Assembly (NCBI GenBank): GCA_013368375.1
Contig: JAACJP010000005.1
Span: 620,001-684,000 of the forward strand
Reading direction: 5' to 3'
Length of the DNA stretch: 64,000 nucleotides
Origin: Tricholomella constricta
Taxonomy: Eukaryota; Basidiomycota; Agaricomycetes; Agaricales; Lyophyllaceae
Numbering within the stretch: position 1 is the first letter of the stretch; each line of letters opens with the position of its first letter. Positions 5,594-38,203 of the stretch are shown in pieces. The notes beneath the pieces were generated by a model, which did not search any database, had not been told where the DNA came from, and was given only the letters and a program-made list of their open reading frames with translations. The position numbers and the translations under genes are program-made.

Positions 5594-7119
5594 CTAGTCT
5601 GACTGGGAATCGAACCGTCTTTCGCTATCCGACCCCACTTCACTGCTATGAGCCTGGACCTGGGGATTCCGCCTCATGTACCTTTCCTTCAAGCGTTGCA
5701 TAGAAGCTGCTCCTGGATACCATGTCAAATGTTCATAGTTCCAATCGCCGACAGGCCGAGTGTCGTCAACTACAGTGCTCAGAGTGAGATTCGATACATT
5801 GTTCCGAAGACATCAGTACTCGCCAAAAAATGAAACAGTTCTGGCTGCCAATTCCATATCACGGGCGAGTTCTTCGCGCTCACGTTCTGTTTGAAACATC
5901 TCAGGATCTGTTTTCTATCAAGTGGTCAATGTTGTGGTTACAAACCTGTATCCGTAGCGAGCTCGCTCTCAGTCTCCATTCTCTTCGCCGCACTGCTGAT
6001 CTTGACCTTCTTCTTCCTTGTTTTTTTTGAACCGCTGGCCTCCATCGTCCCCTCCTTCATTTTTCCGGCAAGCCTTGCCCTCTTCCTGCCACAGGTTTCC
6101 ACATGCCCACTGCCACTCCCTCCAGCGTCTCCAACGTCTCCACTGCCACCACCTCCATCGCCAACATCTCCTCCATGTCCATGGGCACTACTTCCTCTTT
6201 GAATGTCGCGAGCAGGAAATTGTGATGCATGTAAATTGATAATTTGCATGGCGAAACGGGCGAAAAGAAGCTGGCGCGACACATATCTGTGTTCGAATAC
6301 GGTGTTGTGGTAGTAGTTTGCTGCATTGCAAACATTCTCCAAAAAATGGACCCGAAGTTCCCTGCACTTGGGAACAATAGCGAACGTGCCATGCTCAAAT
6401 TGTTTGTGGTGTAGATCGGCCCTCATGGCCAAAAGGTTTGTGGGATCCAGATGCAAGATTTTGTTATTGGTCATGTACACATCCATTGAGTTCCTTCTCA
6501 GCTAATGCAGCACAGTTCGACGTAAACAACAAGTCGACAGATTAATAAGTACACATACCCAATCGGCCTCTGCAATCGGCACTAGATGCGACAATGTCAA
6601 GGAGTCGTTGCAGCCTGATACTGCGCATATTTCATCCCGCTGTCTTGTTCCTTGGCTCGCCGCCGCGGCGGAGTGAAAGCCTCCTTTCAAGACACCTGGG
6701 TTCGAATCCCTTTTTCCCCAAAGCTCCTCCGAATACGACTTGTGAGGAAATCGCCATTTCGAAAATCGCCTGCAGATCTCGTAGCGCGGCTTTGAATTGG
6801 ATAAGAAGTAGTAATATATCTTCTCACGCAGCAAAGAGTCTGGGCCCCCGTCGTGTCGAACGGCAACATCTTCGGGATCTCTGGAGGTCGATAAGTATCC
6901 CGGCTCGTTGCAGGCGAGCACCTGGCATGCTAGAAGTGCGGTGCCATGGTGTAGTCCGAAGTCATTGGGTTCGCCGGAGTTGTCGTAGGCGGGCAAGGAT
7001 AAGAAAGGTCGATTGGTGCCGGGATGCCAGAATACGACATAGGAAGCGTCTTCAGGGAACAAATCAGCAGGTCGCAGTGGGAGTATCGGTCGTTCGTGGC
7101 GCGGAGGTAGTTTTGACAT
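5594..7119 (-). CDS. HNH endonuclease-family protein, copy 1
   Basis: Member of a family common in Agaricomycetes with an HNH_2-type nuclease domain. Exon 1 (7119-6559) starts MSKLPPRHERPILPL and ends with CAVSGCNDSLTLSHLVPIAE plus ADW, which carries the paired cysteines and the first catalytic His. A 57-bp intron (6502-6558) leads to exon 2 with LHLDPTNLLAMRADLHH, the Asn/His half of the motif, and FAIVPK. A low-complexity Gly-rich stretch and a basic NLS-like segment (SKKTRKKKVK) follow. Exon 2 alone stops at 5938. A 38-nt intron (5908-5945) and a further ~45-nt intron would extend it to a conserved tail (DDTRPVGDWNYEHLTWYPG) ending at 5594. The role is unknown: it could be a domesticated nuclease or part of a mobile unit. 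Its 5' flank is a copy of the SCC3 3' end. Confidence 0.72.
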
Positions 7120-9937: not shown

Positions 9938-10994
9938 CATCGTTCCCGATCCCTCCTCGGCAAGCCTTGCCCTTTTCATGCCACGGGTTTCCACATGCTC
10001 ACTGCCACCCCCTCCACCATCTCCAACATCTTGACTGCCACCCCCCCCACCACCTCCTCCATCACTAGCATCTCCTCCATGTCCATAGGCACAACATTGT
10101 AACACATGCAGAGTGATGACCTGCAGGGCGAAACGGGCGAACAGAAGCTGGCGCGACACATGTCTGTGTTCGAATACGGTGTTATGGTAGTAGTTTGCCG
10201 CATTACAAACGTTCTTGAGGAAGTGAACCCTAAGTTCCCCGCACTTGGGAACGATAGCAAATGTGCCGTGATTGAATTGTTCATGATGTAGATCGCTCCT
10301 CATGGCCAAAAGGTTCGTGGGATCGAGATGCAAGGGGTCATTCCAGGCCGTGTACGGACCCATTTCGTTGTCACGCAGCTGATGCAGCACACTTCAACGT
10401 AAACTACAAGTCGACAGATTAATAAGTAAGTACACGTACCCATTTGGCCCCTGCAATCGGCACTAGATGCGACAATGTGAGAGAGTCGTTGTCAGCCGAT
10501 ATCGCGCAAACCTTGTCTCTCTGCTTGATTCCTTGACTCGCCACCTCGGCGGAGGGAAGGTCTCCTTCAATACCGGGGTCTAAATCACTTGATCCCCAAT
10601 CCTCCCCCGAAAATGATTTGTGAGGAAACCGCCATTTCGAAAATCGCACGCAGATCTTGTAGTCGTCAAAGTTAACCGGAAAGTAATAATATTCTGTTTG
10701 AAGCAGCAAAGAGTCCGGGCCCCCGTCGTGTCGCGAGGAAACGTCTTCGGGATCTCTGGAGGTCGATAAGTATCCCGGCTCGTTGAAGGCGAGCACCTGG
10801 CATGCTAGAAGTGCGGTGCCATGGTGCAGTCCGAAGACATTGGGAACGTCGGAGATGTCGTTGGCGGGCAAGAATAAGAAAGGTGAATTGGTGCCAGGGT
10901 GCCAGAATGCTATTTTGGAAGCGCGTTCAGGGAACAGAGAAGCAGATCGCAGTGGGAGTATCGGTCGTTCGTGGCGCAGAGGTAGTTTTGGCAT
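9486..10994 (-). CDS. HNH endonuclease-family protein, copy 2
   Basis: Same architecture as copy 1. Exon 1 starts at 10994 (MPKLPLRHERPILPL) and ends in SLTLSHLVPIAGAKW. The intron is ~10388-10441. Exon 2 begins LRDNEMGPYTAWNDPLHLD and contains NLLAMRSDLHHEQF and FAIVPK, then a Gly-rich segment and the basic SKKTRKKKVK stretch. The second cysteine of the CxxxxC pair in copy 1 is replaced (AISADNDS instead of AVSGCNDS) and EADW has become GAKW, so activity is doubtful. The 3' part is near-identical to copy 1 while the 5' part is diverged, as if two ages of sequence were joined. Exon 2 alone stops near 9830; the longer reading to 9486 needs two short introns. An AT-rich GTATATATC stretch ~110 bp upstream of the start lies in the copied SCC3 flank and may serve as its TATA box. 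Confidence 0.65.
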
Positions 10995-11090
10995 CGTGCT
11001 GGTGTATACCAAGGTGGGCAATGTTGTTGAGGAGCGACTCGGACGCGTGACGTCATCCTCGGTCGTTACGCCACTGCGCTCTGCTCATTC

Positions 11091-11206
11091 TCATCCGCGA
11101 AGTATATATCACATGAGCTAGCCTCAATCAAATACCAGTATCTATGTTATTACATCGACAGCAAGAAAGCACGACAGAGGGTAAGGATAATAAGATAAGT
11201 AAGCAG
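11091..11206 (-). repeat. Copied SCC3 3' flank upstream of HNH copy 2
   Basis: Reverse complement of roughly 54570-54703, the region downstream of the SCC3 stop. Landmarks are ACATGAGCTAGCCTCAATCA, ATACCAGTAT and AATAATAAGATAAGTAAG-like sequence. This copy reaches further downstream of SCC3 than those beside HNH copies 1 and 3, and includes the AT-rich TATATA stretch. Confidence 0.85.
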
Positions 11207-11633
11207 ACTCACCCGAGGCGCCGCTGTGGCGCACTGCTGGCACGCCGCGAAGTTAGGATTGCATTTTGTGATTTCGAATCTACTTCTATCGAACGATCTA
11301 AAGCCTCACAGGCCCAAGAATGTAGAACGAAGAATGAACGGAGAATGTGGAAGAAACAAGAAATAAAAACAAGAAACAAGATGCGATCGGCTGTCAATGC
11401 TATGGTACATGATAAAAGTCCGAGTTACTCCTTGGAAGAAGAAGAAGAAGAAGTAGTTCGTGTGTTGGTGCGAGAGACCGCTGGAGGCGATGATGAGAGA
11501 GAAAGTACAAAAAGCGATGAGAGTCCGAGACTTGGAACAACAGGTGTGTGAGACATGCGAGTGCGAGGAAAGAAAAAGAAAGAAAACAAGAAGCCGGGAG
11601 GCAGCAGCCGTAGAAAAAAACGATCATGCCACG
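11207..11633. other. Duplicated 3' flank between HNH copy 2 and the WD40 fragment
   Basis: No gene. The left part is the flank shared by the HNH units. From ~11360 it matches the 3' flank of the F-box/WD40 gene (27285-27577), including the GATGCGATCGGCTGTCAATG landmark and the GAAGAAGAAG run. Confidence 0.6.
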
Positions 11634-12583
11634 TCAAACAAAAAGGGAAGTGTCGAGACCAGGTAAAAAGTCGATGACGGAGATTTTCTGATCATGAGAC
11701 GAGCTATACCAGCACCGGAAAAGCACGTTTCGTCGTCAGAGGCCGTGAACGTGAACGAATGACCAGCAGCAGCGCGCACGCACCTGATAATCCTGGTTAC
11801 GTCAAACCTGACGTCAAAAATATGGCTCGAGTGTGCATCCTTAAACTCTTGCACGAGTTTACCTGTAAAGAAAAGGTAAGAAACGGTGTCAAGTCCACAC
11901 TGGGTGGTGGTGATGCAAGCAAGGTACCACGAATGACGAACGTCTGGCAAAAGAAAAAAAAGAAACTCACCCGTATCCAAATCCCACACCTTAATTATAA
12001 TAGACCGATCATAGCTCGCACTAACAAGCCTCCTACTCCCCGGATCAAACGCCAACGCCCTAACAAGCGACTCATGCCCCACAAGCGTGCGGAGGCACTC
12101 CCCCGTCGCCGCCGACCACACCTTGATTTGCAATCATTCGAGCCCGACACGATCAGATTGTCCTAGCCCCACCAACCACCATCATGAATAAGTACATTCA
12201 TTGCAGACAAATTATGGGCATGAATAGAGGGCGGGGAGGACGCACCTTGAATTTGATACACCCAAACCCCGACCGTCCCTCTCAAACGTCCGGATACGCT
12301 TCCCGCTCTCGCGGCCGATGTTCCAAAGGACCATCTTCCCGTCTCCGCTTGCGCTGACCTGTACTCACCATGCTCAACGTGCTCAGTGAAAAAGGAGGAA
12401 GAACCACTTACGACGCGCCCGCTCTGCAGCCCAACAGCGTTCACCGGCCCCTCGCCCAGGGTTCGCACCAGCACCAGCGTCTCCCGGTCCGACACACGGA
12501 TGACGGCGTCCAAGTCGGAGCTGGATGATTAGTTCGAGGTCAGCCATCCAATCGTTGTATCAAAGGAGAAGGATTGATGAAAG
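11634..12583 (-). pseudogene. 3' half of the F-box/WD40 gene, duplicated and decayed
   Basis: A copy of 27578-28510. It contains the last four WD40 repeats and the intact C-terminus ending SSHDQKISVIDFSPG…, with the stop at 11634-11636. Lesions against the parent: a one-base deletion near 12125 (TTGATTTGCAATC instead of TTGATCTTGCAATC) shifts the frame in the KIKVW repeat, a 6-bp insertion lies in the SASYDRSVKVW repeat, and a deletion alters the LRGHEGPVNAV repeat. It has no F-box, start or promoter. Its 5' break at ~12583 abuts the last codons of the third HNH gene. Confidence 0.85.
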
Positions 12584-16061: not shown

Positions 16062-19000
16062 ATGGTGGCGGAATTGATCGAAGATGCCTTCCCGGACAAG
16101 TCTACTGCCAACATGCCTGCGACATGCAATGGATGCGGAGAATCAGTTAATCGTAACGGGCTGAAGAATCACATCCGCCTCAGCAAGGACTTACGCTGCA
16201 AAGCTGAGAAGTGGACAAGCCCTCAAAACGGTCCTAGTTCGGAACTGGGAGAAGGCGACAGTGTCAGAGAATATGAAATTCCTGTCGATCCAGCTGGAGA
16301 TTTCTTTGGGGATTATGACCTGTATGGTGAGTTGAGTCTGTTGTGCTGCGAAATGAGTAAAAATTGAAGGATCTCACTGCACCAGATGAAAGTGACCAGC
16401 CAGATGAAAGCGACCAGCCAGCTACACCAAGCAAGCCGACAGAGGAGGATGAAGAAGACCGCAACTCTCTCGATGCTTTACATGCAGAGCAGGAATACGG
16501 ATTAGAACCCCCGCATGCAAGGCTACACTCACCGAGTCGTCGTCCAACCGTCGAGGATGATGAGGCTGAAATGGATGTGACTACATCTGCACAGCGGCTT
16601 CGAGGAGGTGCGGAAGAGACGCTGTTAAACAAGCCCTATGTCATCAAGTTTCCTTCTGACAGAGCAGGTGCCGTGTACTCACAGGATGGCCAAACGACGA
16701 ATGAGCAGTATAGCGGGAATCTCGATGCATCTGCAGGTCTATTTGCGCCATTTTCGTCAAAGATCGAGTGGGAAATTGCGCGTTGGGCCAAGCTACGTGG
16801 ACCCAGCTCGACGGCCTTCACTGAATTGATGAAAATCGAAGGTGTAAGTTGGTATTCACTGTGGCGAGAGGATTTGACTTACCGATAATTAGGTTGCAGA
16901 AAAGCTTGGGCTTTCATTTACAAGCTCCATTGAGCTCAACAAAATGATTGACTATCTCTTACCGGGGCGCCCTCAATTTCAACGTCACGAAGTTCTGGTC
17001 GGTAACGAAGTCTGCGAAGTGTTCTTTCGAGATGTGGTCGCTTGCATTCGAGCACTGCTGGGTGATCCCGATTTTGCGGTCTACTTGGTCTTCGTGCCAG
17101 AGAAGCAATATACCAATGAGGGGAAACAAGTTAGGCTGTACCATGATATGCATACAGGCAGGTGGTGGTGGTCGACGCAGGTAAACAAATTGTTTGGTTG
17201 TGGGTCCACGTAATAACACTCACATGCACAGGAGACACTCGAGAATGATAAACCAGGCGCTACCATTGTTCCCATAATCATATCGACCGACAAGACACAG
17301 CTCACTCTGTTCCGAAATAAGTCTGCCTATCCAATTTATCTCACCATTGGAAACATACCAAAGGAGATCCGCAGTAAGCCCTCGAATCGTGCCTATGTCC
17401 TTCTGGGATACCTTCCCACCACACGTCTTGAGAATGTCACTAATCGAGCAGCTCGTCGTCGTCTACTTGCCAACCTTTACCATGGATGTATGGCTCGCAT
17501 TCTCGCACCATTGGTCTCCGCCGGAACAGATGGGATTTTCATGACTACGGGTGATGGATTAACACGGCGTTTTCATCCACTTCTTGCCTGCGTCGTCAAT
17601 GATTACCCTGAGCAAGTTTTATCGACATGCACCTCTACAGGAGAATGCCCAACATGCCCTGTGCATCGAAATCAGTTGGGTGAATATGATCGTGAGGCTC
17701 CGGCTCAGCCTGCTCTTCGTGATCTATCCCAAATCCTTGAAATCCTCGACTCCTTCGACAGTGATCCTGCTGGCTTTTTGCAGGCCTGTAAACGAGCAGG
17801 TGTGAAGCCAGTTGTTGATCCATTCTGGAAAGACCTGCCGTATTCCCACATTTACCGCTCCATTACTCCCGATATTCTACATCAGCTCTACCAAGGCATA
17901 ATGAAGCATCTCGTTGGCTGGATCATCGAAGCTTTTGGAGCTGCAGAAATCGATGCCCGCTGCCGTCGTATGCCTCCGAATCACAACCTCCGCCTTTTCA
18001 TGAAAGGCATCTCGACTTTATCGCGTGTTACAGGCCAAGAACATGATCACATGTGCCGTATATTACTCGGACTTGTTATTGACGCTCCACTCCCCAATGG
18101 ATTTTCCAGTGCTCGTCTTATATCTGCTGTCCGTGCAATGCTCGACTTCCTATATCTTGCACAGTACCCTGTTCACACGGATGAGACACTTGAGCTTCTC
18201 GACGATGCACTGGAGGACTTTCACAGGAATAAGGACATCTTTGTCGACCTCGGTATTCGGGATTCCTTTAATATTCCGAAACTCCACTGGGCTCAGCACT
18301 ACTCCTTCGCAATCAAACTTTACGGGACTACCGACAACGTCAACACGCAATACACTGAGCGCCTTCATATCGACCTCGCGAAAGACGCATATGCAGCATC
18401 TAACCGTAAAGATGAGTTTTCCCAGATGACTCTGTGGGTGGAGCGGAAGGAAAAAATCGTTGACTGGCGTCAGAACGGATCACCGATTGTCGAGCGAAAG
18501 GAGTGGTCACCGCCGGGTCTCGAACTTGATCGCACCCTGCACATGGCGAAGCATCCGTCGACACGTTCCGTTTCGTTTGAAGTTCTCGCCGCAGAATACG
18601 GGGCGCCATTATTCCGAATCGCATTAGCCAGGTACCTCTTAGTTCTCAATGAACCCGATCTCACCTCTCGCGAAGTGGAACGCCGCCTGTGGACCATCCG
18701 CATACCCTTCACCAAAGTGGCTGTCTGGCATCGCATCAAGTTCCTCCGCTCAGACCCTGTCACCGGCGCGACGTCCACGGCCGACTCTATTCATTCTCAT
18801 CCGGCAAAGAGGGATAGTCGGGGTCGTCTAGTTCCCGGAAGGTTTGATACTGCACTGGTCAACGGTGGTGAAGGAAAAGCGACGGGCATTGAAGGTGAGT
18901 TGCTCCTCTATATTTATCTTCCCCATGTTGACCAACCTCCATAGGTTATCACATTGGACGGGTCCGAATTTTGTTCTCGATTCCCAAACACTCACACGAG

Positions 19001-19493: not shown

Positions 19494-19495
19494 CG

Positions 19496-19738
19496 GGCGA
19501 ACAGAAGCTGGCGCGACACGTATTCGTGTTCAAACACAGTGTTATGGTAGTAGTTTGCCGCATTGCGAACGTTCGTCAGAAAATGGACCCGTAGTTCCCC
19601 GCACTTGGGAACGATAGCGAACGTGCCCTGCTCAAATTGTTCATGGTGTAGATCGCCCCTCATGGCCAAAAGATTTGTTGGATCCAGATCCAAGGGGATA
19701 TTATGCGCCATGTACACATCCATTGAGTTGTCATCCAG
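19496..19738 (-). pseudogene. HNH copy 3, start of exon 2 (fragment 2 of 3)
   Basis: Exon 2 of the third HNH gene: after the acceptor it reads LDDNSMDVYMAHN, then LDLDPTNLLAMRGDLHHEQF and FAIVPKCGELRVHF, and is cut by the Plavaka element at 19493. It is bounded upstream by the intron that contains the recombinase/XPG segment. The Asn/His half of the HNH motif is preserved here. Confidence 0.88.
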
Positions 19739-19783
19739 CTAACGCAGAACATTTCAATGTAAGCAACAAATTGACATATTATT

Positions 19784-19794
19784 TAATAAGTACA
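19784..19794. repeat. Left copy of 11-bp direct repeat
   Basis: TAATAAGTACA, repeated at 26015-26025. It occurs once at the matching intron position of HNH copy 1 (ATTAATAAGTACACATAC), so it marks the insertion boundaries. Confidence 0.85.
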
Positions 19795-21033
19795 GTTATT
19801 TCCAACGATTTACAGGTACGCTGTAAAGCAGCTGTAAAGCGATCTGAGGGCCGATCGAGCGATCTGGGGATCGGAAAGGGATATCTCGCCTGGAGGAGCC
19901 AAGGAGGAGCTGTAGACGCGGACTGTCACGCGGCGACCACACGGTTGAAGGGCTGATGAAATTTGTGGTTCCGTGTACCGCGTAATTTTTTTCGGGTCGG
20001 TACGTACTCTCATTGACAACTCCGCTAAGACTCACACAACTGGGTAGGGCAGCCGCAGGTACAGAAACTTGGTGGAAACTGCAAGTAACTCATGTTGAAT
20101 CTGATATTTGGACCAGTACTGGGATAAATGGTACTCGAGTGCTTGGCAAGCCCTGGAGCTGGAAATTGAACTTGAATGCCACTTGAACCAGTCAAAATGA
20201 TGCTCCGAAGACGGCCCGAAGCCCTTGTAAATGCAAATTCATCGTCGTTCGGAGAGGTAAAGTCAGTTCTAATTTTCAAGTGGAAAGAAAATTAAAGGTG
20301 TATCCACAGGCGGCGTCTGTCTGCCTCAATACAAATCTTCATACAAGCATCAAATGACAATCCTGGTCGTCGTGGGTCGTCGTGTACCCATTGGCACCCA
20401 CACACCTCCAATGAAGATATATTCCCCGTCACCAAGAAAATTATGTTGATAGCTCGCTTCCGCACCCCGCGCTTACAGGGGAAGTGAAATGCGCCCGAGT
20501 AGAGTTAAGGATCGTTAGCAACGGTGATGATTGTGTTAGCGTCTTGATGTGATTTACTGTGAATTTCGATCAGTACGGCGTACATGTTTTCATGATCCGA
20601 ATTATATGTGCCCAAGATGCCGGGACTGTAAATCAGTCTGTAAATCAGCTGAATTACCGTAAATCAATAAGACAAAAGTACTTTTCTCTACTTTTGCCAG
20701 CCAGATGACTACTTTTCACTTTGCACCAGGTCGCCTTGCCGCTCGCGACGCGTCGATAAACGCGAGTGTCACGTGCATGGTCACTGGGCTGTGACTATCT
20801 GTACGCGAGTGTAGCTACACTCGGCTAGCTACTGCCACTTCCGTCTCCCTGCTCTACTCTGCTTGCTGTTACCGCCGCCTCTCAGTCTCCCGACAGCCTT
20901 CTGGACAGCAGGATGAAGACCACACACCAAAATACAGCAGTTTTGGCCTCTCTCAATTTTTTCCGAACCTCCGAGACTCTTGACAATCTCACGGCATCAG
21001 GTCTCATCTGCCATCGACTCTCTGCACCACAAC
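19795..21033. other. Left noncoding region of the YR/XPG segment
   Basis: About 1.24 kb with no convincing gene. Near the left edge: GATTTACAGG (19807) and two CTGTAAAG copies (19821, 19832). At 20626-20665 there are three TGTAAATCAG-like copies in the opposite sense, followed by AATAAG. The inverted relation and the AATAAG at both places suggest a ~0.87-kb nonautonomous element may be nested here. The stretch 20700-21033 should hold the promoter of the XPG gene. Confidence 0.45.
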
Positions 21034-22998
21034 ATGGGAATTCCGAACTTGTGGAAGGTATGTTTGCTTGATATCACCTCACGGCCTGAATTCTTACTTG
21101 AAACTTTAATAGCTTCTCAAACCGACTGTGTTTTCACGCACACTCACCGAGCTTTCTGTTGCCGAAGGATTTGACGCTGATAGAAGAGGGACGGGAACAA
21201 TGGTACTTGGAGTTGATGGCAGGTGTGTGGTTACCAGTATGGATCCAAGAAAATCACTGACACCTTGTGCAGTCTGCTGTTAAACCGTGCTCAGTGGGCA
21301 GCATATCATCAAACGGGCCGAGGCATCAATATGCAGGCGGGGGAAAATCTTCCACTACAGATTCTGGTCTGGCAGGCCTGCCGCCTCCTCTCGCTTCCTA
21401 TCATGCCTGTCGTCATTTTTGATGGAGCCAGCCGACCAACCACAAAGCGCGGACACCGTGTCAAGACCGCTCCACATGCGTTGCTTGCCGCTTACATGCA
21501 GCTCCTCGAAGACTTAGGGTTTCAGACATATATAGTGTGTAGATTGATTATTATAGAGTATCATGTTCCTGACATTCTACGCTTTACAGGCACCGGGCGA
21601 GGCTGAAGCCGAGCTCTCTCAGCTGAATGCCCGAGGGCTTGTCGATGCTGTGCTCACCGATGACGTTGATGCTTTTCTCTTTGGCGCAACATGTGTGATT
21701 CAAATGTGAGTGCTATCTTTGATGCTTTTACCTTCTGCTCATGATATACCGAGATCCAATTTGATCAAAGACGGAGACTATGTCTCCGTCTTTACATCAA
21801 AAGCTATTCAGAAACACACGAAGACCCGACTGACTCCTGCTCGCATCTTTCTGATTGCCGTCCTCAGTGGGGGTGATTATTCGGTAACCTTTTTTTTCTG
21901 CCGCAATTTAACTTCTGATTTATATTCTCTCTAGCGTGGGCTGAAAGGGTGTGGCATTGAGATTGCGCATCAGCTCAGTCTCGGAACCACACTTGGAGAA
22001 GATTTGTATGCAGCTGTGCATAACTGTTCAAGCACCGAGCTGTCATTGTTCCTTGAAGAGTGGTGCAAGAGGCTAAGACGGGAGCTTGTAGACAATCCAC
22101 ATCAAGCTCTCCGACAATGTCAGCCTGCTCTTGCTCAGAAGGTGGTCCAGGGCTTCCCAAGTCCGAAGGTTCTTCGTGCGTACCTTCACCCCATCACTTC
22201 GCTATCCAATGGCAGTACTCCCGAGATCAACTCCAAGATACGAACACCCGATTTAGCTGCTGTCGCAGTTTGGTGTGAGAAATACTTTTCGTGGGGAACC
22301 CGCGGCGTCATTCTTGACCGCTTTCAAAATAATGTATGGGGTGGAATTTGTGTCCGGTCGCTTATCAAGGTACGTACGGGCTCATCTTTTCTGCTTTATT
22401 ATTCTCTGACGTTTCCATTTTAGCCTGTCGACACAGCCTCTGCCATTGCAGCACATTTTGCAGCATGTCAGCCTGTCTCGTTCCGGCCCTCCATTCTCCA
22501 TGTATACCGGGCTGCACTCGGGCCTGGGCCCCCGGCAAAGAAACCGAACACGTGGGGATACAGTGTCCAAGTCGAGCCGCATTCCTTTATTGTGGCCACG
22601 CTCTCTTGTCTTACTCCTGAAGCCCGCCAACTTGGGAATGCACAGCCCCGCAAAAATTTTACAGTCTGGATTCCGGCTCCGATTCTCAAGCGTGCATATC
22701 CCAAGCTTGTCATGAATTTCCCAGTGCCCATTCAAGCAGTGAAACCATCTGTGAGTTCTGCACCGTTTCTTCAATTTGTCATATAAAACTCATGTTTGCC
22801 CAGATCTTATCTGCTAATGATGGATCTGCTCCCGGCTCGAGCTCCAATCCTATCGACGTAGACAATATCAATGAGGAGGATGGCGGGGATAATGAGAACA
22901 CGCACGAAGCCCTTGTGCCAGCCGATGGAGCTATGTTCGGCCCCCCGACTCGTGTTAACTATCTGTTCAATAATCTAGACACTATCTTAACTCTGTAG
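21034..22998 (+). CDS. XPG/Rad2-family nuclease, GEN1-like
   Basis: Structure-specific nuclease of the FEN1/XPG/GEN1 family, which cuts flaps, bubbles or Holliday junctions. Exon 1 is MGIPNLWK from 21034, and further exons follow across ~50-nt introns. Order: N-terminal XPG domain (LLKPTVFSRTLTELSVAEGF; LGVDGS with the first metal Asp), I-domain (APGEAEAELSQLNARGLVDA and VLTDDVDAFLFGA with the acidic residues), then SGGDYS and GLKGCGIEIAHQL, a helix-two-turn-helix. All the acidic catalytic positions I can place are present. A long C-terminal region without recognised domain ends …NYLFNNLDTILTL at 22998, about 540 residues. The C-terminal linker has SSNPIDVDN, a possible SUMO-interacting motif. 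The gene is 175 bp upstream of the recombinase gene on the same strand. It could be an accessory factor resolving recombination intermediates, or cargo. Confidence 0.85.
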
Positions 22999-23173
22999 CC
23001 CGTGAAAGTATATCATCCACCTTCTTATATTTGTACCATACTTTATCGAGCCTACAAATCGGTCACTGTTCGGATGTGATACAATATATTAGATGTGAAA
23101 TTAGCTGAAACATGAGAGTCGCCAAAAAAGGAGGAAGACACGCCCTCACCGACTTCGACTACCTGTGCTAGAC

Positions 23174-25597
23174 ATGGCAAACCAAAAGCAGGCCAGAAAG
23201 CCATCAGTAAAGAAAAAGAAGAAGAACGAAGCAGCTCAATTAAAGACCCTTGCCGATATCGCGCATGAAAATGTTGCAAAGTACAACAAGGTCATCCATA
23301 CCAATGCCGCGTACAACGGGAGCATCCGCCGTGGCAAGGAGTTTCTAGCCAAGCTCATTGCTCAGCGGAAGGAGGACAGGATCATTGTATGTGAGCAGGG
23401 CATCCCGACTGACGAGCTGGAAAAAGCTCTCGATAATCCACCCAATCAGTACTCGGCAATGGTCGTCGAGATGTTCATTGCACAGAAGTGTGTAGTGGAA
23501 GGTTGCCAGCAACAGGTTGCAGAGAGTATCCACGCTGCCTTCTGTCGGTACTGGGATGCAATGTAAGCATTGTAGTGGAATCGAAAGTTTAAACTGTCAC
23601 TCACAAAATCTCTAGGGACGGCACAAAGTACGCTGGAGATTATAAGCTCAACAAAGTCACGAATGAAGTATCTGGATGCCCTGCACGCGCACCATGTGTG
23701 CTCGCCATCAAAAAAGCCATGCAAACACGCGGAAAGGCCACCAATGCAACCCGAAAGCATGCTGAAGCCCTATCAATCGAAGATGAGCGGAAATTAATGC
23801 AGTGGTCACAATGCCTGTGCCCACACGAGAGGCTTGAAGAAATATCGAGCGAGAAAAATGGAAACGGAAGTACAAGGCCAGTCAAAGGAAATGGTGAAGG
23901 AGCGCTTCCATTAACCGTCGAAGAGGTGCACTTCATTTTTGAGCACGGATTTATGAGGGCGTTTGTGACCTCCGCTTTTACTCTCTGGACAAGGTCAATA
24001 TAATCAGAGCACCTGAGCTTTGACTAATATTCTTCTGTGGAACAGGTGCTTTGAACTTCTTAGCCTTACGTATGGAGACCTCACACAGAATTGTCGAGGC
24101 CGCGCACCATGGTACACACCACACTTCAAGGTCCACCTGTATAACCGAAAGGGCTGGCAGAATGCACAGGGGTACGAAGGCCCCAGAACGAGTAAGTGTC
24201 TTCGAGCCAATACCTGAACTCAACAAACTGACAAGCAGTCAGGCAATATATATGAAATATATCCTCAGGACATACCTGAAATTGACATGTTCACTCATCT
24301 TCCCCGATGGCTCAAGCTCTACGCCGCTCTACTGGGACGGGATCTTGAACCAGGAGACCAGCTATTTCCTCATATCTCGGCCAACGGAACCATCTACCCA
24401 AAGCAAGAGATGAGTTACGCCACCTTCTCGAAGCTGCTCACCAAGTTTACGAGTGGCGCCAATTTGGTCGGATGGTTCACGACGCACTCGTTCCGTCGGG
24501 GCGGGGCACAGTATCGCTTCGTGTTTGCTCCAAGGAAATGGTCGCTCAACAAAGTTCGCTGGTGGGGAGGCTGGGCCGAAGGTGAGAATGTGAGCCTTCC
24601 TACAGTATTTAGTTACAGTATAGTGGCACTCACGACTGGTCTATGCTGCGGTTTTTCAAGGTGGACACACTGATGAAGTATCTCCTCGACTCACTGCAGA
24701 GCTATGAAAATGGGCACGGAGACGCGCTACATCCGGTGCCGAAGGGATTTGGTGAGAGCTTCATGGGCACGGATGTGGAAGCATCGCCGGTGACAGCGGG
24801 CGAAGTTCGGGAACTGAAAAGGTCGGTTGATGAGAAGTTCGACACCATAGACGAGAACCTGGGCAGGAAGATGGATGAGATGGTTGGCCGAATCACAACA
24901 AGCTTCACTGAAGCTCACCTTGCTGGACCCTGCATACTGCAGCCTCGCCATCGGGAGCGTGGTAGTCTGTCCGTTCGCACTGCAAGACTCTCAGCAGCAC
25001 CTTACAACTTGGGGTCCCGGTCCAGTTCTATCAGCACCAGTGCTTCCGATGAGTCTGAAGGGGGGGGATTGGTCAGTGAATCCAGCGGCTCACTTTCACG
25101 TAGCAAGCAGAACAAGAAAAACGAGCGCCGCGCTGCACCCATTCAGGGTGTCGCTATTCCAAACCTTAAAAGTGGTCCTGACGCGTGGAAGCAGGCCGTT
25201 AAGCAGTGGGAGGAGGGCGACGACGTAGCTGGTCTTGTGGCACTGAAAGACTGGCCAGCAGAGTGGTACACACGTGGGATGCGAACGTTCACAGGATCGA
25301 AGCGCCGGGACAGGGAGCTGATCGTGATCGCCTATAACCGGTGAGTTGCGCATCGTCTAAAGAAGAGAAGAGACTGAAGACGTACCTTACCCAAGTGTCG
25401 GGCGAGACGAGAAAGCCTTCGAGGCCACCTATCCCGAGGCCACGAAAAACATGAAATCTCTGCTCCATGCTATCAGAAAGAAGCTTGCAGACGTTGTTAA
25501 GCCCAGGACAAGCCGGAATGGGACGCCGGAGGAGCGAGCCAGAAGCAGGGGAGTGAGCGTCGACAGCAGCGGGAGTGAGCACGGTGCAGAAAGCTGA
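23174..25597 (+). CDS. Tyrosine recombinase, Crypton-like
   Basis: The ATG at 23174 starts a Lys-rich N-terminus (MANQKQARKPSVKKKKKNE). A helical region follows with a putative metal-binding cluster (CVVEGC…HAAFCRYW), then the recombinase domain. Active-site candidates in order: Arg in TRCFELLSLTYGDLT (box I), HSFRRGGAQY (H-x-x-R), the Trp/Gly of RWWGGWAEG, and the nucleophile Tyr in DTLMKYLLDSL. This R…HxxR…Y order is diagnostic of phage-integrase-type recombinases. The C-terminal tail is Ser-rich then basic, with …RDEKAFEATYPEATKN in the last exon, ending at 25597 (about 690 residues, at least five introns). The domain differs from the Ngaro recombinase at 32248-33381. It is probably the mobilising enzyme of the 19795-26014 segment. 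Confidence 0.83.
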
Positions 25598-26014
25598 TGA
25601 AAACACTCCAGATGCACCATGCAGAGCAGAAAGGTCACGATAAAAGATTCTAATCTCATATAATTTCAGTTAATAGTTAATACTACATAGAGGTTATCAT
25701 TGCAATAGAGATCGTCGCTTGAAGATGCGCCAGAGAAGCTTGAAAGATAGGCAGCAGCGGGCGAGGAGGGAGGGGGCAACCGAGCGAGAGATTGGAGACG
25801 CCCATCAAAAAACTGGCGTGGCCCCGAGCACGAGGTGTCCGGACCGCGCCCCGCGCTTTGGTTCGGGGGCAGGCCGCCAAACAAGACCCTTGTTGGCATC
25901 AATTAGTCAGCAGGTCCCGTCATTTGATCGAGCCTGGCCCTGCCGACCGATCAGGCCAAGCCCCAGGTCTCGGCGCGGTTTTTTCCCATACGCCAGGCGG
26001 GCGTAAATCATTTC
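25598..26014. other. Right noncoding region of the YR/XPG segment
   Basis: No gene. GC-rich towards the right edge, with GATCGG-type sequence near 25946 that recalls the GATCTGGGGATCGG area at the left edge (~19860). It ends GGGCGTAAATCATTTC just before the direct repeat. Confidence 0.45.
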
Positions 26015-26025
26015 TAATAAGTACA
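26015..26025. repeat. Right copy of 11-bp direct repeat
   Basis: TAATAAGTACA, identical to 19784-19794. On the minus (gene) strand it lies 5 bases inside the HNH intron from the 5' splice site (GTACG). Confidence 0.85.
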
Positions 26026-26030
26026 CGTAC

Positions 26031-26582
26031 CCAATCGGCCTCTGCCCTCGGCACTAGCTGCGACATTGTCAAGGAATCATTGCATCCTGAAATAGCGCAT
26101 ACTTTGTCTCGTAGCTCGATTGAAACACTCGCCCCGCTGGAGTGAAGCTCTCCTTCGACACCTGTTTTCACATCCCCTGATCCCCAAACCTCCTCATACC
26201 AAGCATGAGGGAAAGGCCATTCCGAAAATTGCTCGCAGATGTCGTAGTGTGGCTCAGAAATGAGTAGAAAGTAATAATATTTGCGCTGAAGCAGCAGAGA
26301 GTCTCGGCCCCCGTCGTGTCGAGAGGAAACATCTTCGGCATCTCTGGAAGTCGATAAGTATCCTGGCTCGTTGAAGGCGAGCACCTGGCATGCTAGAAGT
26401 GCGGTGCCATGGTGTAGTCCGAAGACATTGGGAACGTCGGAGTTGTCGTTGGCGGGCAAGGATAAGAAAGGTTGATCGGTGCCAGGATGCCAGAAGTAGA
26501 CTCTGAGAGCGCGTTCAGGGAACAGAGAAGCAGATCGCAGTGGGAGCGTCGGCCGTTCGTGGCGCGGAGGTAGTCCTGGCAT
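26031..26582 (-). pseudogene. HNH copy 3, exon 1 (fragment 1 of 3)
   Basis: Exon 1 of the third HNH gene, starting MPGLPPRHERPTLPL at 26582 and ending SLTMSQLVPRAEADW at the 5' splice site (26030). The frame is open, but the first catalytic His of the motif (SHLVP in copies 1 and 2) is Gln. With exon 2 broken by Plavaka and 6.2 kb in the intron, the gene cannot make a normal protein. Confidence 0.88.
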
Positions 26583-27577
26583 CGTGTGGGTGTATATTAA
26601 GGGGTGGGCAATGCCTGCCAAAAATCTCGGACCGTTTGTGCTTATCTGTCCAAAAGTCAGACATTCTAGATGCCCCTCAGAGCCGCCGCACACGCTTTCT
26701 GCAAACCTGAAATGCACCATCGGCGCTGGCATTCCTCTGCGATAGGCGCTCACTTACATACCTTGACGAACGTGGCAAGGAACTGTAACAAGCAGCATTC
26801 AATAACTGCGATATCGCGTAAATTCACTCCAGGCGCCCCTGTGGCGCACTGGCACGCCGCGCGCGATTGCATTTTGTGACCCGAGTCCGAGCCTGAGTCT
26901 ATTTCTGTCGAACGACCTCCAACCTCACTAACTGTCACTCCGCAAAGGCCACGTACTAGTAGTTGAAACACCACTGTCCAGAATCTCGGATCAAGTGCAG
27001 TGGCGATCAACAACGACCAATCCGTTGATAGAATCCGTGAAGATACATACATACAACAGCAGCCCGCGCCTTTCCAAATTCCATTCGACTCGGATTCGAT
27101 TCCAAAGGCAGTTGGATACAGTGGTAACAAGAAGTAGAGAAGAAATTAAAATACAACCAAATGCTGCGTGCATGAACGACGCTACATATATACATACAAA
27201 AAGAAAAACAGCGAGACCGGGGAGGGGAAGGGTAGGCTCAAGAATGGAGAATGGAGAATGGAGAATGGGAGAGAAACAAGAAACAAGATGCGATCGGCTG
27301 TCAATGCCATGGTACATAATGAAAAGTCCGAGTTACTCCTTGGAAGAAGAAGAGAAGAAGAAAAGTTCGTGCGTTGGTGCGAGAGACCGCTGGATGCGAT
27401 AATCCGTGACGGGAGGGAGAAAGTACAAAAGGCGATGAGAGTCCGAGACTTTGAACAAGGGGTGTGTGTGAGATATGCAAGTGCGAGGAGAAGAAAACAA
27501 GAAGTGGAAGACGACGACCGAGATGGAGCCCGGGAGCCCGGGAGGCAGCAGCCGTAGAAAGAGGCGACCACGCTACG
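26583..27577. other. Flank between HNH copy 3 and the F-box/WD40 gene
   Basis: No gene recognised. 26651-26724 is a copied SCC3 3' end (CCGCACACGCTTTCTGC, CACCATCGGC). 26725-26965 is the flank shared with HNH copy 1. 27243-27270 is a GAATGGA microsatellite. 27285-27577 is the 3' flank of the F-box/WD40 gene, which was also copied to 11360-11633. Confidence 0.6.
26651..26724 (-). repeat. Copied SCC3 3' end upstream of HNH copy 3
   Basis: Reverse complement of ~54497-54560: AAAAGTCAGACATTC, then CCGCACACGCTTTCTGCAA and CACCATCGGC. It is shorter and more diverged than the copy at 7228-7349. Confidence 0.8.
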
Positions 27578-30500
27578 TCAGACAAAAAGGGAAGTGTCGA
27601 GACCAGGTGAAAAGTCGATGACGGAAATTTTCTGATCATGAGACGAGCTATACCAGCACCGGAAAAGCACGTTTCGTCGTCAGAGGCCGTGAACGTGAGC
27701 GAATGACCAGCAGCAGCGCGCACGCACCTGATAATCCTGGTTACGTCAAACTTGACGTCAAAAATATGGCTCGAGTGCGCATCCTTAAACTCTTGCACGA
27801 GTTTACCTGTAAAGAAAAGACAACGTAAGAACAGGTTTCGAATTTCACTTTGGGTGGTGGTGATAGTGGTGGTGGGTGGTGCATGGAGGTCCTCAAGAAC
27901 ATCGGGCAGAAAACTCACCAGTATCCAAATCCCACACCTTAACAGACCGATCATAGCTCGCACTAACAAGCCTCCTACTCCCCGGATCAAACGCCAACGC
28001 CCTAACAAGCGACTCATGCCCCACAAGCGTGCGGAGGCACTCCCCCGTCGCCGCCGACCACACCTTGATCTTGCAATCATTCGAGCCCGACACAATCAGA
28101 TCGTCCTAACCCCCGTCATGAATAACTGCAAACCAACCACTGGGGAGACAGGGAGGGACGCACCTTGAATTCAATACACGCCAACCCCCGATCATGCCCC
28201 TCAAACGTCCGGATCCGCTCCCCGCTCTCGATGTTCCAAAGGATCATCTTCCCGTCCCCGCTTGCGCTGACCTGTACATGTGCGCCGCGTTCAGTGAAAT
28301 AAAAGTTTTCAGAAAGATGGAAGAACGACTTACGACGCGCCCGCTCTGCAGCCCAACAGCGTTCACCGGCCCCTCGTGGCCCCGCAGGGTACGCACCAGC
28401 GCCAGCGTCTCGCGGTCCCACACCCGGATGACGGCGTCCTTGGAGCTGGATAATAAGTTCGAGGTTAGCCTTCCAATCCTTGTACCAAAGGTGAAGGAAA
28501 GGTGAAAGAACAGAGATAACAGAAAAAAGAAGGAAACCCAAGAGCGCGCCATACGCCACGATCTAGATCGTCCTAAAGCAGGCACGGCGCCCGATCATGC
28601 TGTGCTCGGCTCGGCTCGGCAGCGCTGTTCCAAAAATAAACCGCCTCACTTCGGAAACAAAACCAACAAGGCCAGGACTCGAAAAAAGAAAAAGAAAAAA
28701 ACGCACCAGCTAACGATCCACCTCTCATTAATCCTCAAATCCAACACCCCGCCCGCATGCCCGCGCAGCACAGCCCGGATCGCGCCCTTCACTTCCCGCT
28801 GCCCCCCACCTCTTCCCCTTGGCGTTCCCGTGTCCTTGGCTTTTCCCTTGCCTGCTGCCTCTCGACCCGCCTCAATCCGGCGTGCGGTCCACAAATCCCA
28901 CACGCACACCGTACAGTCCGAGCTGCCGCTCACCATGAACCCGCGGCTGCGCTGCTTACTCCTGCTCCTGCTCCCCCCTCTCCTCCTCCTCCTCCTCCTG
29001 CTTCTCCATGTCGCCTTCCCTCCATCATTCTCATCGCCATCCCCAGAATCATAATCATAATCAGAGCCAGAGTCGGACCCAGACCCAGACCCAGACTCAG
29101 ACTCAGAATCATCCGCATCCCAATCCGCACTAAACTTGAGGCACAGCACACTCCCCAAATGCCCCTGTACCCTCATCTGCATCTGCATCTCCGTCTGCAC
29201 CTCCGCCTCCTCCGTTCCTTGCCCACCCCCCACTCCTTGTCCTTGTCCTTGTCCTTGTCCCACTCCTACTCCCACTCCCACGTGCCCCTGCCCTGGAACT
29301 GATCCTGGTACTGCGCCCGCCCCGGCCCCAAAACACCCCAACAGCGCCCCATCCCTCAAGCTCCACACCCGGATCGAGCGGTCCCTGGATCCGGTCACGA
29401 TCCGGGAGCGGTCAAACTCGACGCAGTAAACGCTGTCGACGTGTCCGGATATCGTCGTTATTTGGGGGGTGAACTGCTGAGGTTGGGGTGGGGGTGGGGG
29501 TGGGGGCGAGGGTATGGGTGGCATTTGGGATGGTTGGGTTTGGGATGGGGAAGAGAGTTGAGTTTGATGGTGGAAATGGGAATGGGACTGGGACTGGGAG
29601 AATTGGTGCTGAAGTGCAGATGGATGGGCAGGAGAAGGCAAAGGCAAAGGCGAAGCGGCGTTATGGTTCAGTTGAGCTTGCGCTTGCGATGAACCGAGCG
29701 CCCGCTGAGGATGCGCTATCGCTGGCCCAGATGCAGGTGCAGGTGCGGGTGCGACTGCGACTGCAGTCCCATTACCCGCCCACCGCCGCTCAAGCTCAAG
29801 CCGCGCACGATATAAAGCATGCCAGTCAACCTGCAGCGGGGCATGTGCAAGGTCCTGGCCACCGCCCCCGCCCCCACCCCGAGCCATGTCTTTCTTTGGC
29901 GTCATCGTCGATTTCACGACGTTTGTCTCCGTATGGGCGTCTACGTCTGCGTCCGCCTTTGTTTTCGCGTCGGCGGCGCTCGTACTCGTGCTTGTGTTTG
30001 AGATTGTGTTTACGTTTACATGTACGGTTGTTGGGGATGCGACGCGGGAGGGAAAAGGTAACGGCGCTCTCCCGCGCGTGCCGGTGCCGGTGCTGGTGCT
30101 TGGGTTCCTGCTTGTGCTTGTGCTTGTAATTGTGCGGGGGGCGTAGCGCGAAACAAGCTCCCGTCCCCGTATCTGCCTTTGATTGTTTCGAGTATGTACA
30201 TGTACATGTGCTTCAGCGAGGTACCTGTTCGGGAGGAACGCGTACACTGCGTTTTTGACTAGGGGCGGGGAACCGGCTGAGGACGACCGTACAAGTTGAG
30301 ATTGGGATTGGGATTGAGATGAAGATGGGGATGCAGATGCAGATGCAGAATGGAAGGGTAAGGGCGGCCGGGGCTGGGGTTGGGAGCTTGACGCGTTCGA
30401 GTTCGAATTCGAATTCGGAGGCAGAGTGAAGAAAGAATAGGGGTGGGGGTGGTGCGGCGTAGGTGTCCTCGATAGGTTTGGTGATGACGACGAAGAAGAC

Positions 30501-31650: not shown

Positions 31651-32178
31651 ATAGATGATATTGAATAAGCATACAAACTCCGATGTAACAATGGGCGACT
31701 CAACGGCCTTTCGGCGTGAGCAGGGGTCTGAATGAGCAGGCAAGAAAACCCAAGAACACTCAGTACACAAGAGCATGTACAAATATTCAACACTTCTTTA
31801 TACCGAATTAGAAGAAAGAGAGAAAAGAAAGAAAAACTTTTGGAGCATATAACAAAGGTTGCGGGAGGGTGGGCGAAAAGGTTGCAAATCTCCGGAAAGG
31901 GCGAGCCGCGGCGCGTGAAGCGCCAAGTGTACGCGTCTGTGGAGGAGATGTTGGGAGAGAGGAATCAAGGAACGTGAGTCATGTGCCAGTCGCGGCCCAA
32001 AACGTGTTCCTCTCTCATCCCGTGCCTCCTTTCAGAGGACTTTCATTTCGTGCTGGTTCCTTGCTCTGACTCGGCAAATAGATGATATTGAATAAGCATA
32101 CAAACTCCGATGTAACAATGGGCGACTCAACGGCCTTTCGGCGTGAGCAGGGGTCTGAATGAGCAGGCAAGAAAACCC
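31651..32178 (-). repeat. Ngaro B2-A2-B1 repeat block
   Basis: B1 (32078-32178) and B2 (31651-31751) both begin ATAGATGATATTGAATAAGC; A2 (31872-32046) lies between them. A 31-bp spacer separates A2 from B1 and a 120-bp spacer separates B2 from A2. Confidence 0.92.
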
Positions 32179-38028: not shown

Positions 38029-38203
38029 GGCGAAAAGGTTGCAAATCTCCGGAAAGGGCGAGCCGCGGCGCGTGAAGCGCCAAGTGTACGCGTCTGTGGA
38101 GGAGATGTTGGGAGAGAGGAATCAAGGAACGTGAGTCATGTGCCAGTCGCGGCCCAAAACGTGTTCCTCTCTCATCCCGTGCCTCCTTTCAGAGGACTTT
38201 CAT
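38029..38203 (-). repeat. Ngaro terminal repeat A1
   Basis: 175 bp, apparently identical to A2 at 31872-32046; it begins (plus strand) GGCGAAAAGGTTGCAAATC and ends GAGGACTTTCAT. It marks the 5' end of the element on the minus strand. Confidence 0.92.

Follow-up and report, generated by a model that had tools for sequence, protein, structure and literature searches.

By the usual view, tyrosine recombinases finish the junctions that they make. Among fungal transposons that encode such an enzyme, CryptonF elements are described in passages of PMC3212892 as carrying a recombinase with a GCR1_C domain and 6-bp terminal direct repeats, and as having a proposed circular intermediate; the same passages name a C48 peptidase and a Mariner fusion as additional partners of Cryptons, and non-autonomous derivatives of an insect Crypton. 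Starships, in excerpts of PMC12134995, reach about 700 kb and carry many cargo genes. As for the nucleases of the XPG/FEN1 superfamily, sections of PMC4695337 give two features that separate GEN1 from FEN1: a short arch and a C-terminal domain of three strands and four helices.

We have found, in a stretch of 64,000 nucleotides of the Tricholomella constricta genome (contig C5:620001-684000; hereafter the window), a transposon that encodes both a tyrosine recombinase and a GEN1/XPG-type nuclease. It has features of the Crypton order, namely an R-H-R-Y tyrosine recombinase, no reverse transcriptase (unlike DIRS/Ngaro; there is no such domain among the Pfam matches of the two proteins) and short (4-6 bp) terminal direct repeats that are single in the empty site at three of seven insertions. 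A sequence-only reading of the window had already drawn the comparison with Cryptons; the recombinase and the short direct repeats bear it out, but the GCR1_C domain of fungal CryptonF is lacking and the repeat is a recombination core. Most likely this is a Crypton-like element with its own junction resolvase, and we infer both the resolvase activity and its role in transposition.

Results

Ends and copies of the element

We compared the segment with the whole T. constricta genome (44.1 Mb, 118 contigs). Copy A, in the window (Table 1), and six more gene-bearing copies have both ends, at identities of 66-99%; relative to A these are B (contig C8, 98%), C (C34, 99%), D (C2, 76%), E (C46, 78-85%), F (C13, 67%) and G (C67, 66%). 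Beyond these seven, the same genome has two more gene pairs, the eighth divergent and the other degraded, as well as five non-autonomous derivatives. Copies A to G all start with ATAAGTA and end with TTTCTAATAAGT, in flanks unlike one another. Allowing up to three mismatches, the left-end pattern has 20 matches in the genome and the 21-nt right-end pattern 16, of which 14 end in ATAAGT; the reversed patterns of both ends, searched as controls in the whole genome at the same threshold, have none. Because the first base is C or G in three of the 20 left ends, and one has the sequence ATATGT, the constant part of the core is approximately TAAGT, and the base beside the right core after insertion (A, T, G or C) varies by copy. 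Within the 9.9 kb examined around the divergent copy on C3, ATAAGT-type ends were not found, and an Rfam scan of the window reached no gathering score.

The sequence-only reading had placed two same-strand genes and an end repeat in one segment and proposed that complete copies be aligned to fix its limits. All of these parts are present, and copies at unrelated loci moved the ends to those given in Table 1. The 11-bp repeat it reported, TAATAAGTACA, does occur at both ends of copy A, but the true repeat is the core of 5-7 bp: other copies have only ATAAGT or ATAAGTA in common, and the additional TA and CA of copy A are matches between element and flank. An 11-bp target duplication is thus ruled out, only 5-7 bp being common to the copies. 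Two unrelated insertions are likewise ruled out by the shared ends around both genes in seven copies, and no boundaries leave out one gene, since all seven gene-bearing copies with both ends enclose both and the five non-autonomous copies enclose neither. Taken as a whole, we regard it as very nearly certain that the segment is a transposon with two genes that integrates at ATAAGT. We also note that copy C is broken near its 3' end by an insertion of about 6.1 kb (C34:229752-235857), and that in copy E (L035 1619-2109) part of a left end is repeated about 0.5 kb inward of the first one.

Table 1. Positions, within the window, of the element, its genes and its sites
Feature	Position	Strand	Remarks
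Two-gene tyrosine-recombinase transposon, complete (copy A)	19786..26023	+	6,238 bp including both core copies; ends set by the copies on C8, C34, C2, C46, C13 and C67, flanks differing
Left core ATAAGT	19786..19791	+	left end of 7/7 gene-bearing copies A-G; single in empty sites
Conserved left end	19786..19840	+	GTAAA[TG]C copies at 19807 (reverse), 19823, 19834; conserved in non-autonomous derivatives
Internal block	20623..20683	+	GTAAATC at 20628, 20640, 20659; retained in four 1.0-kb derivatives
GEN1/XPG-type nuclease gene	21034..22998	+	8 exons, spliced 532 aa
Nuclease exons	21034-21057, 21113-21222, 21273-21534, 21590-21705, 21754-21883, 21935-22369, 22424-22750, 22804-22998	+	
Tyrosine recombinase gene	23174..25597	+	6 exons, spliced 713 aa
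Recombinase exons	23174-23562, 23616-23993, 24046-24191, 24243-24589, 24661-25340, 25396-25597	+	
Conserved right end, 59 bp	25964..26022	+	GTAAATC at 26003; retained in 5/5 non-autonomous derivatives
Right core ATAAGT	26017..26022	+	21-nt right-end pattern, up to 3 mismatches
Empty site, paralog 1	6545..6550	+	ATAAGT
Empty site, paralog 2	10422..10427	+	ATAAGT

Empty sites

For three of the seven insertions (A, B and E) we found empty counterparts with a single ATAAGT, and the target hexamer therefore pre-exists insertion. At the position of copy A's insertion the two paralogs in the window read AATAAGTACA and AATAAGTAAGTACA, so that both show the empty site, as had been noticed from the sequence. 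The empty site for E (C32:329780-330006) has one ATAAGT and is identical to the joined flanks in 225 of 226 positions; five diverged relatives of this site carry ATAAGC. Copy B lies within a dispersed repeat of which at least 14 empty copies were found, and among the eight that were read six have ATAAGTA unchanged and two are variant (ATGAGTT, AAAAGTT). A search with joined flanks found no empty sites for C, F and G; for D it gave one 80% match, which does not align over the core.

The paralogs interrupted by, or free of, the element had been labelled HNH. The label finds support in one of the three (HNH_2, 30.2 bits, 6373-6627), but Pfam scans of single open reading frames from all three show no HNH. 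The surroundings contain a duplicated block (10134-12511 and 19494-28439, 74-99% identical over pieces), and the element interrupts the second copy of this block. Between 13076 and 19495 a Plavaka transposase fragment (17490-18941) lies within 47-bp inverted arms that are 83% complementary, probably another transposon beside the element. A 175-bp direct repeat (31872-32046 and 38029-38203, 6.2 kb apart) is 100% identical, and the long minus-strand reading frames between its copies have no Pfam match.

Conserved ends and non-autonomous copies

Four of the non-autonomous copies are 993-1017 bp long and one is 409 bp. They have up to 55 bp on the left and 59 bp on the right in common with the large copies, and the four longer ones keep the internal block of about 62 bp; their existence suggests that the element's proteins act in trans. 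The motif GTAAA[TG]C occurs seven times in the 310 bp made up of copy A's left end, internal block and right end, compared with 11 times in the 57,762 bp of the window outside the element, and is likely a candidate recombinase-binding motif. The divergent copies F and G have it at the left end only, with one further inner place in G.

The two proteins

The two genes lie on the same strand 175 bp apart (nuclease stop to recombinase start), exactly as first read. The nuclease matches XPG_N (5.8e-7) and XPG_I (8.6e-16) in Pfam and carries the XPG catalytic acidic residues, in agreement with its initial description; the Pfam GEN1_C signature was detected neither in this protein nor at the element loci. 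By sequence its first match in the PDB is GEN1, and comparison of folds, using the predicted model of P0002, a relative from L. shimeji, again places GEN1 first, with a GEN1-like structure through the C-terminal domain. Both features that distinguish GEN1 from FEN1 fall on the GEN1 side: the short arch, of GEN1 length, in an alignment of the window's own nuclease, and the domain of three strands and four helices on the predicted model of P0002, rather than on the window's protein. The host has separate canonical GEN1 genes, for which a check had been suggested: two loci match GEN1_C (C34:358 kb, 104.9 bits; C3:902 kb, 63.3 bits), and no element locus does. In a nuclease tree of 39 tips (P0001, P0013, P0027, P0029, P0031, P0033, P0034, P0035 and P0157 were left out), 14 element-linked sequences and 10 others are set apart with a support of 0.73; when Steccherinum and the five sequences from polypores are removed, 18 members remain and the support is 0.989. 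Precomputed GEN1_C annotation is absent from all 10 non-linked members, of which only four are informative because six are under 380 residues and too short to show GEN1_C, and is present in 13 of the 15 sequences outside.

For the window's recombinase Pfam gives no recombinase family at E≤0.1, the single row being HSBP1 (0.043, below the family cut-off). Among 32 aligned relatives, at E≤1, Phage_integrase is found in eight (best 1.1e-5) and a weak similarity to DUF3435 in 21 (best 6e-4). The R, H, R and Y positions are conserved in the alignment and the predicted model of the L. shimeji relative has a Cre-like fold, which upholds the original call of a recombinase with R, HxxR and Y. Used as a profile against PDB sequences, the recombinase alignment matched none, and no relative was confirmed in the viral contigs scanned. 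One relative, P0105 of Amanita rubescens, has a helix-hairpin-helix match (HHH_8, residues 37-72) below the family cut-off.

Both genes evolve under purifying selection. Among A, D and E, where dS is 0.47-1.02, the nuclease has dN/dS values of 0.13-0.18 and the recombinase values of 0.12-0.14; those for the closest pairs are noisy (0.18-0.30 for both genes in A/B and A/C and for the nuclease in B/C; 1.2 for the recombinase in B/C, at dS 0.004). With copy A's exon borders, which the projection onto copies B to E assumes, the nuclease frame is open in all five copies A-E and the recombinase frame in four (copy C has a stop at codon 193). No other frame that starts and ends in the element's non-coding ends exceeds 133 aa; stop-to-stop frames overlapping these ends reach at most 112 aa on the left and 133 aa on the right, excepting a host frame of 277 aa, read from the minus strand, which extends 104 bp into the right end.

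Pairing of nuclease and recombinase

A protein search of the genome gave at least 10 recombinase loci (C5, C8, C34, C2, C46, C13, C67, C3:1075-1077 kb, C16:167 kb and C6:1233 kb), a lower bound with only the best candidates scored. At nine of the 10 a nuclease gene lies upstream on the same strand (eight clear, one degraded), and in this genome the two genes are thus not mostly apart. The degraded pair, on C16, retains 33% and 38% identity over short stretches, and the match on C6 is fragmentary (26.7 bits) and lacks a nuclease. Of the 14 XPG_I loci, five (C34:359 kb, C3:901 kb, C22, C9 and C17) have no recombinase, and two of these carry GEN1_C. As a control, we looked within 100 kb of the 18 GCR1_C matches in this genome, and none of the 14 XPG_I loci lies there.

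The association extends to other fungi. Among 158 protein records, six carry the two genes fused. Two are from T. constricta itself (P0001, P0037); the other four are from Arthromyces matolae (P0042), Gymnopilus dilepis (P0046), Cyclocybe aegerita (P0084) and Steccherinum ochraceum (P0138), the last with the recombinase preceding the nuclease. In P0147, from Tephrocybe rancida, a short stretch at the N terminus is nuclease-like (best 4e-4); further pairs are P0004/P0041, with adjacent locus tags, and P0002/P0039 and P0006/P0043, on the same contig only. Recombinase relatives number 283, of which 120 are listed, and pairing is known for a minority; a protein search with the nuclease alignment, in which the best 7,999 candidates were scored, added four records (P0155-P0158). 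The recombinase tree of 120 tips (119 listed proteins, P0001 being left out, plus copy A) has 13 tips known or taken to be linked, counting P0147 by its short part and P0039 and P0043 by their shared contig; 12 fall in a group of 25 (support 0.75), P0138 is far off, and the other 107 tips should not be read as unlinked. Nuclease and recombinase distances, computed with codon-based proteins, correlate over 14 pairs (r 0.93, 0 of 9999 permutations as high), with one pair per close cluster (10 pairs; r 0.87, 8/9999) and without Steccherinum (r 0.77, 88/9999); within Lyophyllaceae alone the correlation is not significant (r 0.43, 1682/9999).

Discussion

We propose that the tyrosine recombinase excises the element as a circle and inserts it at a pre-existing ATAAGT, with the GEN1-type nuclease resolving four-way junctions, a scheme that we hold to be probable. 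The recombinase would bind the GTAAATC-type motifs of the internal block and of the two ends; joining of these ends would give a circle that contains a single ATAAGT; this circle would exchange strands with the target within the hexamer; and the nuclease would cut junctions that the recombinase might leave unfinished because circle and target agree over only 5-7 bp. The parts of this scheme differ in strength. We are confident that the nuclease is a working component of the element, and put the chance that it resolves junctions during transposition at even or slightly better. That it is needed to finish strand exchange is a more tentative suggestion. Equally speculative is a lineage with two enzymes, in which the recombinase would perform the first strand exchange and leave the second to a GEN1-type resolvase that the element has captured, permitting integration at a bare match of 5-6 bp.

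The nuclease might instead be a part of the element that cuts at flaps or gaps once recombination is over, in heteroduplex repair, replication of the excised circle or repair of the donor site. Its place in the XPG/FEN1 superfamily, the missing GEN1_C signature and the textbook ability of tyrosine recombinases to complete both strand exchanges alone are in keeping with such a role; the nearness of its sequence and fold to fungal GEN1, together with the arch and the C-terminal sheet and helices, argues against it, and we consider it unlikely. A passenger that aids survival of host or element, for example through DNA repair under stress, and is unused in transposition is more improbable still: some transposons do carry cargo genes, as textbooks record, and two genes of the host itself encode GEN1_C, but the pairing at nine of 10 loci with constant gene order, the similar dN/dS of the two genes and their association in several other fungi look like those of a component. 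We can hardly credit that the element belongs to a group already described, whether as a usual CryptonF or as a Starship of small size. Recombinase and 6-bp repeats do fit CryptonF as outlined in PMC3212892 and a weak likeness to DUF3435 exists among relatives, but GCR1_C (PF12550) is absent from the window's recombinase, the 33 relatives scanned and the element loci while 18 other places in the genome match, which rules out CryptonF membership, DUF3435 scores only 19.5 and 14.1 bits in this genome (element loci on C3 and C13; cut-off 25.8), which rules out Starship membership, and none of the open papers searched joins such a recombinase element with an XPG/GEN1 nuclease. We note separately that GCR1_C matches occur in tandem at C12:571-583 kb, C9:782-789 kb, C2:1342-1360 kb and C66:74-83 kb, with spacings of 5,815 bp (three), 6,000 bp (two), 8,682 bp (three) and 8,690 bp (two), which could be due to repeated integration into one site.

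We know of no other transposon with its own GEN1-type Holliday-junction resolvase; this one would be the first. The sequence-only reading knew of no such partner for Cryptons, and we too found no description in the open papers searched: none joins Crypton, tyrosine recombinase and XPG, or tyrosine recombinase, Holliday junction resolvase, transposon and GEN1, and no such element appears among the best-ranked titles of broader searches. XPG, FEN1, GEN1 and resolvase are absent from the main text of PMC3212892, whose endonuclease passages concern other elements or references, and the portions available of PMC7175516, PMC13236599, PMC5718144, PMC10799480, PMC3411680 and PMC4905642 contain no such element. 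If the element does maintain a junction resolvase under selection, then at least one lineage does not rely on its recombinase alone, which would explain how a recombinase element uses targets with almost no homology, and a DNA-repair type enzyme would have been recruited by a transposon. A natural enzyme pair with defined ends, a target hexamer, empty sites and non-autonomous substrates makes the proposal directly testable in yeast or in vitro.

The element resembles CryptonF in its tyrosine recombinase, its 6-bp terminal direct repeats, the lack of visible terminal inverted repeats and, as in the insect Crypton mentioned in part of PMC3212892, its non-autonomous derivatives; it differs in having no GCR1_C, a conserved GEN1-type nuclease gene and a recombinase that stays below Pfam cut-offs. 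With Starships it has in common a fungal host and an encoded tyrosine recombinase, whereas it is 6 kb long, has two genes and scores below the DUF3435 cut-off. The recombinase is like Cre, Xer and Tn1549 integrases in predicted fold and R/H/R/Y layout, but it is eukaryotic, about 7-17% identical to them in structural alignments, and has a long C-terminal extension. The nuclease, lastly, is like GEN1 and Yen1 in XPG_N, XPG_I, acidic residues, short arch and a predicted C-terminal domain of sheet plus helices; unlike them it is borne by an element, has no Pfam GEN1_C and stands, with modest support (0.73), apart from most GEN1_C-bearing proteins in the tree.
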